A stretch of 60,491 bases of DNA from Eubacterium sp. GTDB lineage: Bacteria; Bacillota; Clostridia; Lachnospirales; Lachnospiraceae. The notes under the pieces are model-generated. The model was not told the origin of the DNA and made no database searches. It saw only the letters and a list, made by a program, of their open reading frames with translations. Below are positions 4,550-51,844 of this stretch, one piece after another. The stretch spans positions 1 to 60,491 of the forward strand of contig JALERO010000054.1 in NCBI GenBank assembly GCA_022764265.1. Direction: 5' to 3'. The position numbers and the translations under genes were made by a program. The stretch's first letter is position 1, and each line of letters opens with the position of its first letter.

Positions 4550-7172
4550 ACTGACTCCCATGATGGAACAATATTTTGAGATAAAAAATAAATATAAAGA
4601 CTGTATCTTATTTTATCGATTAGGTGATTTTTACGAGATGTTTTATGATGATGCATTGGTGGCATCCAAGGAACTGGAAATCACTTTAACCGGTAAAAAC
4701 TGTGGTCAGGAGGAACGGGCACCTATGTGTGGCGTTCCTTTTCATTCCTGTGAGCCTTATATCAGTAAACTGGTAGAGCGGGGCTATCGGGTTGCGATCT
4801 GTGAGCAGGTGGAAGATCCGAAAGCAGCCAAGGGAATCGTAAAGCGGGATGTGATTCGTGTGGTGACTCCAGGTACCAATACCATGTCTCAAAGTCTGGA
4901 CGAGTCCAGAAATAATTATATCATGAGCGTCTTTTGTGAGAATGATTCATTTGGAGTGGCGGTCTGCGATCTCTCTACGGGAGAATTTCGGACGACACAG
5001 GTGGAACATCAGGATGCACTTTTTGACGAGATGAACAAATTTGAGCCTTCCGAGATTATCTGTAATGATGCATTTTGTATCTGTGGTATGGATTTTGATT
5101 TTATCCGGGAGAAAATCGGTGCAGTGATCACGCCGGTGGAGAGCTACTTTTTTGAGATGGATCATTGTGAGAAAATGATCCGCGAGCAGTATCATCTGAT
5201 TAATCTGGAGGGAATCGGTTTGGCAGATTATCCTTTTGGGGTGATCGCCAGCGGAGGATTGCTGCAGTATCTTCATGAGACGCAAAAGACATCATTGTCT
5301 CATTTGATGGAGCTGATTCCTTATTCTACACAGAATTATATGGTGCTTGACAGTTCCACCAGAAGAAATCTGGAACTCTGTGAAACTCTGCGGGAAAAGA
5401 GCAAAAAAGGTAGCCTTCTGTGGGTACTTGATAAAACGAAAACAGCTATGGGAGCCAGAATGCTTCGCAAAATGGTGGAGCAACCGCTCATACATAAAAA
5501 ATCTATCATGGATCGTCTTGATGCGGTGGAGATGCTCAAAGAAAATGTGATGGCGAGAGAAGAACTGCGGGAATATATGAATTCGATTTACGACCTGGAG
5601 CGTTTGACCATGAAGATCAGTTATCGTTCCGCCAATCCAAGGGATCTTATCTCTTTTAAGACATCCATTCAATATCTTCCATATATAAAAGCCATTCTGG
5701 AACAATTCAGCAAGGGCTTGCTGGCAAAGATGGCGGAAGATCTGAATCCGCTGGAAGATCTATATGAACTGCTGGATCAATCCATTGAGGAAGATCCTCC
5801 GATTCCGATAAAAGAAGGTGGAATCATTAAAGATGGTTTCTCGGAGGAAGTAGATCATCTGAAGAAGGCCAAAACGGAAGGAAAGAGCTGGCTGGCTGAA
5901 CTGGAAGAAAGAGAGCGGGAGAAAACCGGAATCAAGAATCTCCGGGTTCGTTTTAATAAAGTGTTTGGATATTATATTGAAGTGACCAACTCCTACAAAG
6001 ATCTCGTTCCGGATTATTATATTCGAAGGCAGACATTGGCCAATGCAGAACGATATATTACCGAAGAACTGGAAGAACTGGCACGTACTATTCTCGGTGC
6101 GGAAGATAAACTTTGTGCCCTTGAATATGAATTATATGTGGATATCCGTGAAAAACTGGCTGCCCAGATGGATAGAATTCAGAAGACGGCTCACGTGATT
6201 GCCTGGGTGGACGCCTTTGCATCTCTTGCCCTGACAGCAGAACAGAATGGGTATGTTCGTCCGACGATCAATCAGAAGGGAACCATCGACATCAAAGAAG
6301 GACGACATCCGGTGGTGGAAAAGATGATGCGGGGCGACCTTTTTGTATCCAATGATACTTTGCTTGATCACAAAAAGAACAGAGTGAATATTATAACCGG
6401 TCCCAATATGGCTGGTAAATCTACGTATATGAGACAGACAGCACTCATTGTGCTCATGGCTCAGATTGGCTCCTTTGTGCCGGCGAAATCCGCCAGCATT
6501 GGACTGGTAGACCGCATCTTTACGAGGGTTGGAGCTTCCGATGATCTGGCCTCCGGTCAGAGTACCTTCATGGTGGAAATGAGCGAGGTGGCCAATATTT
6601 TAAGAAATGCCACCAAAGACAGTTTGTTGATTCTCGATGAGATTGGGCGGGGAACCAGTACCTTTGACGGCTTATCCATTGCCTGGGCGGTGGTGGAATA
6701 TATTTCAGGCAGTGCGTTGTCCGGAGCAAAAACGTTGTTTGCTACTCATTATCATGAATTGACGGAGCTGGAAGGAAAGCTGCCGGGAGTAAACAACTAC
6801 TGTATTGCTGTTCAGGAAAAAGGAGATAATATCATTTTCCTGCGAAAAATTATTAAAGGAAGCGCCGATAAAAGCTACGGCATTCAGGTAGCCAAGCTGG
6901 CAGGAGTGCCGGATCCGGTCATCGAGCGGGCCAAGGAGATTGCTCAGGAGCTGGAACAATCGGATATTACATCCAATACAAAGAATCTAAGAAGAAAAAA
7001 AGAGACGGAAGAGGAACCGGTGCAGCTCTCCCTTTTTGATACCATGGGTATCATGCCGGTGGAGATGAAGGAAAGTCCGGTGGAAGCAGAATTAAAGCAG
7101 GCAGATTTGGGTAATATGACCCCGATTCAGGCTCTCAATTATCTTTATGAACTGCAGAAAAAATGTCATTGA
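4542..7172 (+). CDS. mutS: DNA mismatch repair protein MutS
   Basis: TPMMEQYFEIK...LFYRLGDFYEMF; GPNMAGKSTYMRQ Walker A; 8-bp overlap with miaB. Confidence 0.97.
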   Translation: MAKLTPMMEQYFEIKNKYKDCILFYRLGDFYEMFYDDALVASKELEITLTGKNCGQEERAPMCGVPFHSCEPYISKLVERGYRVAICEQVEDPKAAKGIVKRDVIRVVTPGTNTMSQSLDESRNNYIMSVFCENDSFGVAVCDLSTGEFRTTQVEHQDALFDEMNKFEPSEIICNDAFCICGMDFDFIREKIGAVITPVESYFFEMDHCEKMIREQYHLINLEGIGLADYPFGVIASGGLLQYLHETQKTSLSHLMELIPYSTQNYMVLDSSTRRNLELCETLREKSKKGSLLWVLDKTKTAMGARMLRKMVEQPLIHKKSIMDRLDAVEMLKENVMAREELREYMNSIYDLERLTMKISYRSANPRDLISFKTSIQYLPYIKAILEQFSKGLLAKMAEDLNPLEDLYELLDQSIEEDPPIPIKEGGIIKDGFSEEVDHLKKAKTEGKSWLAELEEREREKTGIKNLRVRFNKVFGYYIEVTNSYKDLVPDYYIRRQTLANAERYITEELEELARTILGAEDKLCALEYELYVDIREKLAAQMDRIQKTAHVIAWVDAFASLALTAEQNGYVRPTINQKGTIDIKEGRHPVVEKMMRGDLFVSNDTLLDHKKNRVNIITGPNMAGKSTYMRQTALIVLMAQIGSFVPAKSASIGLVDRIFTRVGASDDLASGQSTFMVEMSEVANILRNATKDSLLILDEIGRGTSTFDGLSIAWAVVEYISGSALSGAKTLFATHYHELTELEGKLPGVNNYCIAVQEKGDNIIFLRKIIKGSADKSYGIQVAKLAGVPDPVIERAKEIAQELEQSDITSNTKNLRRKKETEEEPVQLSLFDTMGIMPVEMKESPVEAELKQADLGNMTPIQALNYLYELQKKCH

Positions 7173-36487: not shown

Positions 36488-37255
36488 ATGAGCATTATAA
36501 AAGAAACCGCAACCGTTGTCAGTCAGAAAGAGATTGGAACCGGAATTTTTGATATGGTGCTTCTTTTCCCAAAGGGAGCAAAAGAGGCAAAACCGGGACA
36601 ATTTCTCGCCATGTATGTCAATGACCAGACGAAACTTTTACCGAGGCCAATCAGTATCTGCGGTATAGACGCTGCTGCCGGTACTCTCCGGGTTGTCTAT
36701 CGGATTGCCGGAGAGGGAACCAGACAATTTTCCGAGATGAAGGCCGGGGATACTCTTGAGGTCATGGGTCCTCTTGGCAACGGTTTTGATATGAAAGACG
36801 AAAAGGCGATTATTGTCGGAGGTGGTATCGGAATTCCGCCTATGCTTGAGCTGGCAAAACAGCTGGAGTGTGAGAAGACGGTTGTCCTGGGATATCGGGA
36901 TGAATTATTCTTAAAAGAAGAATTCGAACAAGTGGCTGATGTGAAGGTGGCGACAGAAGATGGAAGCTGCGGAACCCAGGGAACCGTTATCGATGCTATT
37001 AAAGCCTGCAATGTGGAAGGTGCCGTAATTTATGCCTGCGGTCCGATGCCGATGTTAAAAGCACTGGCAGAATACGCACAAGAACATCAGATGGAAGCCC
37101 AGATTTCACTGGAAGAAAGAATGGCCTGTGGAATCGGAGCATGCCTTGGCTGTATCTGTAAATCAAAAGAAAAAGACCATCATACCAACGTAAATAATAA
37201 GCGGATTTGTAAAGATGGTCCGGTATTTGACGCAAAGGAGGTTGTATTTCAATGA
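36488..37255 (+). CDS. pyrK: Dihydroorotate dehydrogenase electron transfer subunit
   Basis: PRPISICGID; GGGIGIPPMLELAK; CGIGACLGC Fe-S motif; overlaps pyrD by 4 bp. Confidence 0.95.
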   Translation: MSIIKETATVVSQKEIGTGIFDMVLLFPKGAKEAKPGQFLAMYVNDQTKLLPRPISICGIDAAAGTLRVVYRIAGEGTRQFSEMKAGDTLEVMGPLGNGFDMKDEKAIIVGGGIGIPPMLELAKQLECEKTVVLGYRDELFLKEEFEQVADVKVATEDGSCGTQGTVIDAIKACNVEGAVIYACGPMPMLKALAEYAQEHQMEAQISLEERMACGIGACLGCICKSKEKDHHTNVNNKRICKDGPVFDAKEVVFQ

Positions 37256-38151
37256 ATTTAGAAGTGAAAGTCGCAGGAGTAACTTTTAAGAATCCCGTTA
37301 CCACAGCTTCCGGAACCTTCGGATCCGGTGCGGAATTTGAAGAATTTGTTGATCTCTCCGCCCTTGGTGCAGTAACTACGAAGGGTGTTGCCAATGTGCC
37401 GTGGGAGGGCAATCCTACTCCGCGTATTGCTGAAACCTACGGTGGTATGCTCAATGCGGTGGGATTGCAGAACCCGGGAATCGAGCTGTTCTGTAAAAGA
37501 GATATTCCACATTTGAAGGAAAAAGGGGCATCCATTATTGTAAATGTATGTGGTCGTTCTATGGAAGATTACGTCGATGTGGTAGAACGCCTTCAGGATG
37601 AACCTGTAGACTTGCTGGAAATCAATGTCTCCTGCCCAAATGTGAAAGCCGGAGGCATTGCCTTTGGACAGAATCCGGATGCACTTTATGAGATTACCAA
37701 AGCGGTCAAAGCAAAGGCAAAACAGCCTATCATCATGAAACTTAGTCCGAATGTGACGGACATTACGGAGATGGCAAGAGCAGCAGAAGCCGGTGGAAGC
37801 GATGCCCTCTCTCTGATTAATACCATTACCGGAATGAAAATTGATATTCATAGAAGGAAGTTTGTCCTGGCCAATCAGACCGGAGGTTTATCCGGTCCAG
37901 CCATTAAGCCGGTGGCAGTGCGGATGATCTATCAGGTGCATAAAGCCTGCAAACTCCCAATCATCGGAATGGGTGGTGTTATGACCGGAGAGGATGCCAT
38001 TGAGCTGATGATGGCAGGTGCCACCATGGTATCTGTGGGAACTGCCAATTTCCACAATCCGAGAGCCACCATGGATGTTTTACAGGGAATCCGTGACTAT
38101 ATGGAACGCTATCAGATTCAGGATATCAACGAGATCATTGGTTGCATGTAA
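37252..38151 (+). CDS. pyrD: Dihydroorotate dehydrogenase (class 1B)
   Basis: TASGTFGSG; NVSCPNVKAGG; GLSGPAIKPVAVRMIYQV; GMGGVMTGEDA. Confidence 0.97.
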   Translation: MNLEVKVAGVTFKNPVTTASGTFGSGAEFEEFVDLSALGAVTTKGVANVPWEGNPTPRIAETYGGMLNAVGLQNPGIELFCKRDIPHLKEKGASIIVNVCGRSMEDYVDVVERLQDEPVDLLEINVSCPNVKAGGIAFGQNPDALYEITKAVKAKAKQPIIMKLSPNVTDITEMARAAEAGGSDALSLINTITGMKIDIHRRKFVLANQTGGLSGPAIKPVAVRMIYQVHKACKLPIIGMGGVMTGEDAIELMMAGATMVSVGTANFHNPRATMDVLQGIRDYMERYQIQDINEIIGCM

Positions 38152-38206: not shown

Positions 38207-38269
38207 GGGGTCGTAACTGGTGAACTTATCAGACCTCTGTTACCTTTTATGTTCACCGGTTCTGATCCC
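38207..38269. repeat. REP/MITE-like palindromic element, copy 1
   Basis: GGGGTCGTAACTGGTGAAC (19) - 25-nt loop - GTTCACCGGTTCTGATCCC (19); same architecture as 44512-44574. Confidence 0.75.
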
Positions 38270-38302: not shown

Positions 38303-38977
38303 ATGGAACAATACAAAAAAGAGTTTATTGAATTTATGATTGATTGCAATGTATTGAAATTTGGTGATTTTGTTACCAAGAGTGGAAGAAAGACACCGTT
38401 CTTTGTCAATACAGGTTTCTATCGCACCGGTTCTCAGCTGAAACGTCTTGGTGAATATTATGCTCAGGCAATCAGTGATAAGTTCGGGTTTGATTTCGAT
38501 GTGCTGTTTGGACCTGCTTATAAAGGAATTCCGCTCAGCGTGGCTGCAACCATCGCGATTTCAGATAAATTCGGAAAGGATATCCGGTACTGCAGCAACC
38601 GAAAAGAAGTAAAGGATCACGGAGATAAAGGTATCCTTTTGGGAAGTCCGATTCAGGATGGGGACAAGATTGTTATCATTGAGGATGTGACTACCGCCGG
38701 AACTTCTATTCAGGAGACGCTTCCGATCGTGAAAGCTCAGGGCGATGTGGAAGTGCTGGGACTTGTCGTTTCCGTTGACCGTATGGAACGGGGACAGGGC
38801 GAGAAGAGCGCACTGGAAGAGATCAGTGAGAAATACGGCATGGAGACTACTGCCATCGTAACCATGGCAGAAGTGGTGGAACATCTGTATAATAAACCAT
38901 ATAAAGGACAAATTATCATCAACGATGAGCTTAAGGCAGCCATCGATGCTTATTATGAGAAATATGGAGTAAAATAA
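38303..38977 (+). CDS. pyrE: Orotate phosphoribosyltransferase
   Basis: GRKTPFFVNTG; FGPAYKGIPL; IIEDVTTAGTSIQETLPI. Confidence 0.97.
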   Translation: MEQYKKEFIEFMIDCNVLKFGDFVTKSGRKTPFFVNTGFYRTGSQLKRLGEYYAQAISDKFGFDFDVLFGPAYKGIPLSVAATIAISDKFGKDIRYCSNRKEVKDHGDKGILLGSPIQDGDKIVIIEDVTTAGTSIQETLPIVKAQGDVEVLGLVVSVDRMERGQGEKSALEEISEKYGMETTAIVTMAEVVEHLYNKPYKGQIIINDELKAAIDAYYEKYGVK

Positions 38978-43484: not shown

Positions 43485-43588
43485 AAATGGACGGTCGGTT
43501 TTTGTCATATTGGCAAGTGTACATCTGAAAAAAATTATGCTAGAATGATAACTATTCAGAGTAAAGTAATAGCAAAATGGAGGATACC

Positions 43589-44506
43589 ATGATTCAGGAA
43601 TTAATTAAAAATATTAAAGAAAAAGATGCCCCAATCGTTGTCGGTCTTGATCCCATGCTCGGATATGTGCCGGAACATATTTTGAAGGATGCTTTTGATG
43701 CTTACGGAGAGAATCTGGAAGGAGCAGCAGAAGCTATCTGGCAGTTTAATAAAGGAATTATTGATGCGACTTATGATTTGATTCCGGCTGTAAAGCCTCA
43801 GGTTGCCATGTATGAGCAATTTGGTATTGAAGGAATGAAAGCCTTTAAGCGCACTTGCGATTATGCAAAGAGTAAAGGTCTGGTTATCATTGGCGACATC
43901 AAGAGAGGCGATATCGGTTCCACATCAGAGGCTTATGCTGTGGGCCATGTGGGACATGTTTCTGTTGGAAATCATACATTTTCTCCATTTACAGAAGATT
44001 TTGTGACAGTGAATCCGTATCTTGGTTCCGATGGAGTGAAACCATTTATCAAGGTTTGCAAAGAGGAAAAGAAAGGAATGTTTATTCTTGTAAAAACCTC
44101 GAATCCATCCAGCGGAGAGTTCCAGGATCGGCTGGTAGACGGAACTCCTTTATATGAGATTGTAGCCCGCAAGGTTGCTGAGTGGGGCGAGGATCATATG
44201 GGAGATGACTACAGTTATATCGGTGCCGTTGTCGGCGCAACCTATCCGGAGATGGGAGCCGTTCTTCGTAAATTAATGCCGAAGAACTACATTCTTGTAC
44301 CTGGTTACGGCGCACAGGGAGGACAGGGAAAAGACCTGGCACCATTCTTCAATGAAGATGGACTCGGTGCAATCGTGAATTCCAGCCGTGGAATCATCTG
44401 TGCTTATAAGAAATCAGAGATTTATGGACCGCAGAATTTTGGAGATGCCAGCCGACAGGCAGTATTAGATATGAAAGAAGATCTGAAAAACGCATTTGTA
44501 AAATAA
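43589..44506 (+). CDS. pyrF: Orotidine 5'-phosphate decarboxylase (type 2)
   Basis: VGLDPMLGYVPEH; VIIGDIKRGDIGSTSEAYA; start 43589 after GGAGG. Confidence 0.96.
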   Translation: MIQELIKNIKEKDAPIVVGLDPMLGYVPEHILKDAFDAYGENLEGAAEAIWQFNKGIIDATYDLIPAVKPQVAMYEQFGIEGMKAFKRTCDYAKSKGLVIIGDIKRGDIGSTSEAYAVGHVGHVSVGNHTFSPFTEDFVTVNPYLGSDGVKPFIKVCKEEKKGMFILVKTSNPSSGEFQDRLVDGTPLYEIVARKVAEWGEDHMGDDYSYIGAVVGATYPEMGAVLRKLMPKNYILVPGYGAQGGQGKDLAPFFNEDGLGAIVNSSRGIICAYKKSEIYGPQNFGDASRQAVLDMKEDLKNAFVK

Positions 44507-44511
44507 AAAAC

Positions 44512-44574
44512 GGGGTCAGGTCCGGTGAACGACATAGATTATTGGAGCCGGTTATGTTCACCGGCCCTGACCCC
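44512..44574. repeat. REP/MITE-like palindromic element, copy 2
   Basis: GGGGTCAGGTCCGGTGAAC (19) - 25-nt loop - GTTCACCGGCCCTGACCCC (19), 18/19 complementary. Confidence 0.8.
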
Positions 44575-44596: not shown

Positions 44597-45109
44597 ATGT
44601 CTAAAGTAGGTATTATTATGGGCAGCGACTCTGATCTTAAAGTGATGAGCAAAGCCGCTGCACAGCTTGAAGAATTTGGAATCGATTATGAGATGACGAT
44701 TATTTCTGCTCATCGTGAAGCAGATGTTCTCATTGACTGGGCGAGGAAAGCTCCACAGCGAGATGTGAAAGTGATAATTGCCGGTGCAGGAATGGCTGCA
44801 GCTCTTCCTGGGATGTGTGCTGCATTGTTTCAGCTTCCGGTCATTGGTGTGCCTCTTTCCGGCAGTAAACTGGATGGAATGGATGCTGTATTTTCCATTA
44901 TGCAGATGCCTCCTGGAGTACCGGTAGCTACGGTTGCTATTGACGGCGCAAAAAATGCTGCAATTCTTGCTGCAAAGATTCTTGCTGTTTCAGATGAGAG
45001 TATTCTTGCGAAATTAAATGCATATACACAAGAGATGAAAGAACAGGTTCAGGCAAAAGCAGCGAAACTTGATGAGATTGGATACGAAGAATATCTTGCA
45101 TCGAAATAA
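44597..45109 (+). CDS. purE: N5-carboxyaminoimidazole ribonucleotide mutase
   Basis: VGIIMGSDSDLKVMSKAA; SAHREADVL; start 44597 (44525 lies inside the palindromic element). Confidence 0.97.
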   Translation: MSKVGIIMGSDSDLKVMSKAAAQLEEFGIDYEMTIISAHREADVLIDWARKAPQRDVKVIIAGAGMAAALPGMCAALFQLPVIGVPLSGSKLDGMDAVFSIMQMPPGVPVATVAIDGAKNAAILAAKILAVSDESILAKLNAYTQEMKEQVQAKAAKLDEIGYEEYLASK

Positions 45110-51464: not shown

Positions 51465-51479
51465 TGCTTTAATACAGTA

Positions 51480-51760
51480 AAGTCTTGGAACAAAAGTAGT
51501 ACTTTCTTGATGGATCATGACAGAGAGTCGGGTAGGTGAGAGCCGATATGGGAAGCAGAAAGGAATGGATTTGGGAGATGCAAGGTGAAGTAACAGTAGC
51601 TGATGCCGCGTCCTCGCGTTACAGGGGTATGATATCGATTAAGTTCTGTATCTGAAATGAGTGAATCACATAGCTTTCCGTTTTATGGGAATAGTTATAT
51701 GATTAATAAGGGTGGCACCGCGGATTATTCGTCCCTGACTTTTTAGTCAGGGACTTTTTT
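51480..51760 (+). promoter_or_regulatory. T-box riboswitch, Trp-type (specifier UGG), with terminator
   Basis: AGTAGTA-like stem I features, candidate specifier TGG at 51566-51568, T-box AAGGGTGGCACCGCGG at ~51708-51723, terminator GTCCCTGACTttttAGTCAGGGACTTTTTT (51731-51760), directly upstream of trpE. Confidence 0.93.
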
Positions 51761-51844
51761 CGTATATAGCTAAAACCGTGCAGCAGAATGAATACGAATG
51801 TAAACGATGTGCTCGCACAGGAGGATGCACAGAAAGGAGAGACA

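Follow-up and report, generated by a model that had tools for sequence, protein, structure and literature searches.

The gap between pyrF and purE of an Eubacterium sp., a gut-type bacterium of the Lachnospiraceae, contains a long inverted repeat, and a similar palindrome lies between pyrD and pyrE. The presence of two such hairpins among genes of nucleotide biosynthesis raises the question of whether they regulate these genes or are copies of a dispersed element. The stretch of DNA analysed, 60,491 nt in length and referred to as the window, belongs to a 2.5-Mb MAG (G000), whose nearest relative is G009. The features discussed are collected in Table 1.

Table 1. Hairpin copies and neighbouring genes in the window
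Feature	Positions	Strand or orientation	Sequence	Pfam or remarks
pyrD, dihydroorotate dehydrogenase, upstream of copy 1	37252..38151	+		PF01180
Copy 1 of the 63-nt element	38207..38269	+		15/19 arm pairs, same 19+25+19 geometry, between pyrD and pyrE
pyrE, phosphoribosyltransferase (orotate phosphoribosyltransferase by context), downstream of copy 1	38303..38977	+		PF00156
pyrF, orotidine 5'-phosphate decarboxylase	43577..44506	+		PF00215
Left arm of the 63-nt element, copy 2	44512..44530	+	GGGGTCAGGTCCGGTGAAC	
25-nt loop, copy 2	44531..44555	loop orientation +	GACATAGATTATTGGAGCCGGTTAT	
Right arm, copy 2	44556..44574	+	GTTCACCGGCCCTGACCCC	
purE, AIR carboxylase	44597..45109	+		PF00731

The first-pass annotation had described an 18/19 inverted repeat with a 25-nt loop just after pyrF, and we confirmed this at the positions given in Table 1: the two 19-nt arms of copy 2 are complementary at 18 of 19 positions, and the element is spaced 5 nt from the pyrF stop codon and 22 nt from the purE start. 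The arms were matched three times in the window (both arms of copy 2 and the right arm of copy 1; up to 3 mismatches allowed) where 0.01 matches would be expected, and a reversed-pattern control in G000 gave 3 matches versus 109 for the true pattern; chance is therefore excluded as the origin of the inverted repeat. The loops of both window copies, as had also been noticed, are closed by TTAT followed by GTTCACCGG and have an identical orientation. Against shuffled sequences, the folding z-score of copy 2 was -4.0 as RNA and -6.0 as DNA. Of the two alternative folds proposed earlier, the second does exist, as a 6-bp GCCGGT/ACCGGC pairing, but it is weak (about -9.7 kcal/mol, compared with -34.9 kcal/mol for the main hairpin), and since it is present in only 4 of the 53 copies found genome-wide, we rejected the idea of a conserved fold switch.

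Other copies were searched for with a full-length pattern and then with a covariance model built from 47 copies, and were counted as distinct places. The model located about 53 places in G000; G009 had 15 and G018 had 7, 20 of the other 21 congeners had no copy and G012 had one weak, short match. With a strict palindrome pattern run over the named genomes, records of G009 and G018 were matched. In a Lachnospiraceae sample of 397 genomes, the family-wide model matched G000 and, apart from it, a single genome, G399, whose match is probably spurious and looks like chance; because stricter filters were applied there and only 13 candidates were scored per genome, the absence of the family outside the genus is a weak statement. 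Single matches of a broad pattern, which may also be due to chance, were seen in Butyrivibrio sp. AE3009 (L209), Streptomyces and Amycolatopsis (L210, L211, L214, L216).

The 47 aligned copies have an invariant length of 63 nt (19+25+19) and a directional loop (consensus TTCATAGCAATCTGGAGCCTGTGTT). The letters of the arms differ among copies, yet pairing is kept by compensatory changes: 10 pairs are altered on both sides, pair 13:51 occurs as UA, GC, CG and AU, and the arms of G018 have GGTGTC/GACACC in place of GGGGTC/GACCCC and still pair. The covariation score was 0.214; shuffling lowered it to 0.106 (0/500) and sliding to 0.072 at most, and double-sided changes filled 73 cells versus 25.5 in shuffles (0/500). 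Pairing inside the loop (22-26 with 38-42) is poorly conserved, and it is therefore the 19-bp stem that constitutes the constrained part. This arm covariation fits selection for the hairpin; it could alternatively stem from neutral template-switch correction of palindromes.

The majority of copies lie between genes, often 5-50 nt from a flanking gene, and a few are inside reading frames. Loop orientation follows the direction of flanking genes in 23 versus 9 cases (p 0.02), i.e. with a mild bias. The roughly 50 copies besides the window pair adjoin unrelated genes, and a significance of the position among nucleotide-biosynthesis genes, hinted at in the first-pass annotation, thus finds no support. 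In a B12-binding/radical-SAM DUF4080 gene, one copy (G000:C248:2794-2856; L057:1795-1857) lies in frame in the linker between two domains, and its start coincides with a codon boundary. Rickettsia palindromic elements can likewise sit in frame inside a coding gene; compared with them, the 63-nt family has isolated intragenic copies only.

Composite arrays with half-arms, which resemble BIMEs, were also found. On contig C98 of G000 (L040:2290-5110) there is a subfamily in which the arms read GGTCACGAG and the loop is a different one, arranged in half-arm composite arrays between housekeeping genes; at 5028 the two flanks resemble an imperfect direct repeat of 19 nt. We considered contamination as the source of C98, but this is countered by its 79-88% match to G009 over several genes.

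Comparison with G009 suggests that the family is mobile. The pyrF-purE and pyrD-pyrE sites are both empty in this close relative, as expected of a mobile element; its PurE and PyrE proteins are 96% and 98% identical to those of G000. Four C98 sites are empty in G009 too, cleanly so at only one of them (C98:4374), where G009 has AGAAATTCTGTAGCATGGAGGAAA and G000 carries about 150 nt consisting of a half-arm, the element and a half-arm. One site is shared with identical flanks (G000:C41:51221 and G009:C114:52165). From the empty sites together with the shared one it appears that occupancy turns over between the sister species, the comparison leaving gain and loss unpolarised; the pyrF-purE copy would be either a recent gain on the G000 lineage or a loss in its sister. 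The genome-wide search and the empty-site comparison that had been proposed earlier returned many copies and several unoccupied loci, so that neither of the refuting cases named with them, fixation at these loci alone or a lack of other copies, applies. With about 53 places, composite arrays and sites empty in the closest relative, the description of the sequence as a dispersed REP/MITE-like palindrome is supported. Target-site duplications of at least 3 nt were found in 0 of 49 copies. A 5' flanking target motif that was strong in one orientation became weaker and roughly symmetric once related or poorly oriented copies were dropped, and for this reason we claim only a weak, A-rich and G-poor bias of the flanks.

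G000 encodes a single Y1 transposase (Y1_Tnp, PF01797 above the cut-off), in which the HYH and Y---NP (YIHMNP) motifs are intact. The combination of HuH with Y---NP is the signature of class 2 TnpA-REP proteins (PMC6006769), and the candidate carries this class 2 RAYT/TnpA-REP signature with a REP model score below the cut-off (best NCBIfam match REP_Tyr_transpos, NF047646, 67.3 bits; cut-off 80). In G000 the contig breaks off 18 nt short of the RAYT start, the upstream flank lying beyond it. Upstream of the G018 orthologue, which is 75% identical to the RAYT of G000, there are a full element about 1 kb away and three solitary arms, which match at 14-16 of 19 positions (expectation 0.02 for exactly 14) and of which the closest lies about 100 nt from the start. 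A total of 20 palindromes of the form GGKRYCWGRYMCC were found across 7 of the 34 related RAYT loci, versus 3 palindromes, all of other types, in 77 control loci, and they have the outer GGGGTCAG/CTGACCCC in common with the 63-nt element. It is mainly this outer motif that ties the element to the RAYT: the element foot GGGGTCAG...CTGACCCC is the same motif with a longer stem and a loop inserted, which makes the RAYT the putative mover of the 63-nt elements. No flanking palindromes were found at the RAYT loci of G189, G027 and G137, the RAYT and the element occur together in 2 genomes of the genus only, and no Y1 transposase was found in the G009 MAG (84% complete), though the family is present there.

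An example of the GGKRYCWGRYMCC form is GGGGTCAGACCCC in G016, where five palindromes of the GGGGTCAGACCCC type lie close to a related RAYT (C124; L185:1432-2637), on either side of it; palindromes of this type are also present near other Lachnospiraceae RAYTs (L251, L252, L254, L255, L269, L272).

Based on these observations, we consider it likely that 44512-44574 is a member of a genome-wide population of non-autonomous mobile hairpins belonging to a REPIN-like RAYT system, with one domesticated transposase as the probable agent of their copying. In a single-stranded region, e.g. on the lagging strand, the element would fold into its 19-bp hairpin; the RAYT, an HUH/Y1 single-strand nuclease, would recognise the hairpin foot GGGGTC..GACCCC, nick and rejoin the element there, and new copies would be placed at other, mostly intergenic sites without target duplication. 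The passage through single-stranded DNA and the direction of change are our inference, as is the role of this RAYT as the mover. The fact that some copies lie inside reading frames counts against this explanation.

REPINs, i.e. REP doublets forming hairpins, were described together with a RAYT in Pseudomonas fluorescens SBW25 (PMC3116915). Like them, the 63-nt family has inverted conserved ends, a less conserved spacer of fixed length and a hairpin maintained by compensatory changes, and its many dispersed copies, found alongside one RAYT, are mostly extragenic and form composite clusters. Unlike them, it has a 19+25+19 layout with whole-arm pairing, neither an intra-arm REP hairpin nor GTAG, about 53 copies and a Lachnospiraceae host. 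In a REPIN, each end harbours a REP that has a palindromic core of its own; when the aligned 63-nt copies were inspected, no consistent hairpin was apparent within a single arm, the arms pairing with each other; GT[AG]G is absent 5' of the hairpin foot, where the flank is A-rich and then C/T. The family behaves like REPINs, and we regard it as a new form of such elements; as the intra-arm REP palindrome and the GTAG guide are both absent, we do not call it REP or REPIN proper.

The class 2 mobiliser signature and the composite arrays of half-copies are shared with REP/BIME and REPtron systems (PMC8266576, PMC6006769), and related RAYTs of the Lachnospiraceae have short palindromes at their flanks in which this outer motif recurs; canonical REPs differ in having a hairpin of 20-50 nt preceded on its 5' side by a GT[AG]G guide. 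Atypical structures have been reported for TnpA-REP subclass 2.6 and class 3 (PMC6006769), and these may be nearer to the 63-nt element. IS200/IS605 elements resemble the family in their HUH/Y1 enzyme, here as candidate mobiliser, in their hairpin ends and in the lack of target duplication, but the 63-nt family has no demonstrated IS boundaries or target tetranucleotide.

In G000 (C40; L046:19-2956) the RAYT gene is part of an operon: it overlaps with a second comM (YifB) gene at the start of the latter, and a second dprA comes next. RAYT-comM linkage was also observed in G018, G012, G189, G027 and G137; dprA follows in the first four, and none turned up in the stretch from G137. Compared with 16 other ComM proteins of the genus, the six that are linked to a RAYT group together as a separate clade (100/100). 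No paper linking a RAYT with ComM or DprA was found in the part of the literature covered, and the RAYT-comM-dprA linkage, which is recurrent, is apparently unreported. Although we regard this as an unlikely scenario, RAYT-comM2-dprA2 might handle the single-stranded 63-nt hairpin, with its own ComM, of the separate clade, and its own DprA helping integration.

Other explanations of the family were also considered. It is improbable that the hairpin is a dispersed structural RNA or DNA element that has spread passively, has no current mobiliser and is retained for a host function, whether as an mRNA 3' stabiliser, an RNase III site, or a site of nucleoid or gyrase binding, all of these taken jointly. 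Intergenic placement, the stable hairpin, covariation, the mild orientation bias and the failure to find a RAYT in G009 are what such an element would display; the fast turnover of sites and the amplification in one lineage (53 vs 15 vs 7) look instead like selfish spread, and some copies, such as the in-frame one in the radical-SAM gene, lie within genes.

We find it quite improbable that the element is a MITE of a DDE-type insertion sequence, with a transposase acting in trans on the 19-nt arms as terminal inverted repeats. Target duplications are lacking, no transposase was found among the Pfam-scanned ORFs around copy-dense contigs, and the compensatory pairing within copies is not needed by DDE terminal repeats; these points weigh against a reading to which the near-perfect terminal repeats, the multiple copies and the variable occupancy would otherwise conform. 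No autonomous relative with the same arms was seen in the sampled contigs of this fragmented genome. Of the REP/MITE label given at first, the dispersal it implies stands, but a strict MITE is not supported, with no target duplication and no autonomous element seen, and the lack of GTAG sets the element apart from canonical REPs.

A cis-regulatory RNA controlling purE and pyrE (an attenuator, PyrR-type site or riboswitch) is hardly credible, as the place of both window copies just upstream of nucleotide-biosynthesis genes, their stable RNA hairpin and the orientation of the loops with flanking genes are outweighed by the copies at unrelated genes, the emptiness of both window sites in G009, the 20 congeners that have no copies and yet nearly all have the same genes, and the lack of an Rfam match or U-tract terminator at the site. 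The Rfam scan of the window returned a T-box, rRNA and tRNAs only, and no intrinsic terminator or U-tract was found at the pyrF-purE hairpin. The T-box leader (RF00230, 117 bits) is located at 51477-51739 of the window, upstream of an ORF at 51788. Copy 2 is expected to be present in the mRNA as a stable hairpin and, being strong by folding prediction, may affect mRNA stability, at most as a secondary effect; we found no support for a role specific to nucleotide metabolism.

The preferred reading, a REPIN-like family moved by a RAYT, bears on the open question of how RAYTs spread REP-type hairpins and which host proteins they need. The surveys consulted describe RAYT/REP systems mainly in Proteobacteria and Cyanobacteria. 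In the Lachnospiraceae family the geometry is fixed, and there is one candidate mobiliser, which shares an operon with genes of single-strand recombination; this question can therefore be tested directly, and if the scenario proposed for RAYT-comM2-dprA2 is true, it would represent a new kind of machine for the dispersal of hairpin elements. For annotators, the family is a warning that such hairpins should not be taken for regulators of nucleotide genes.
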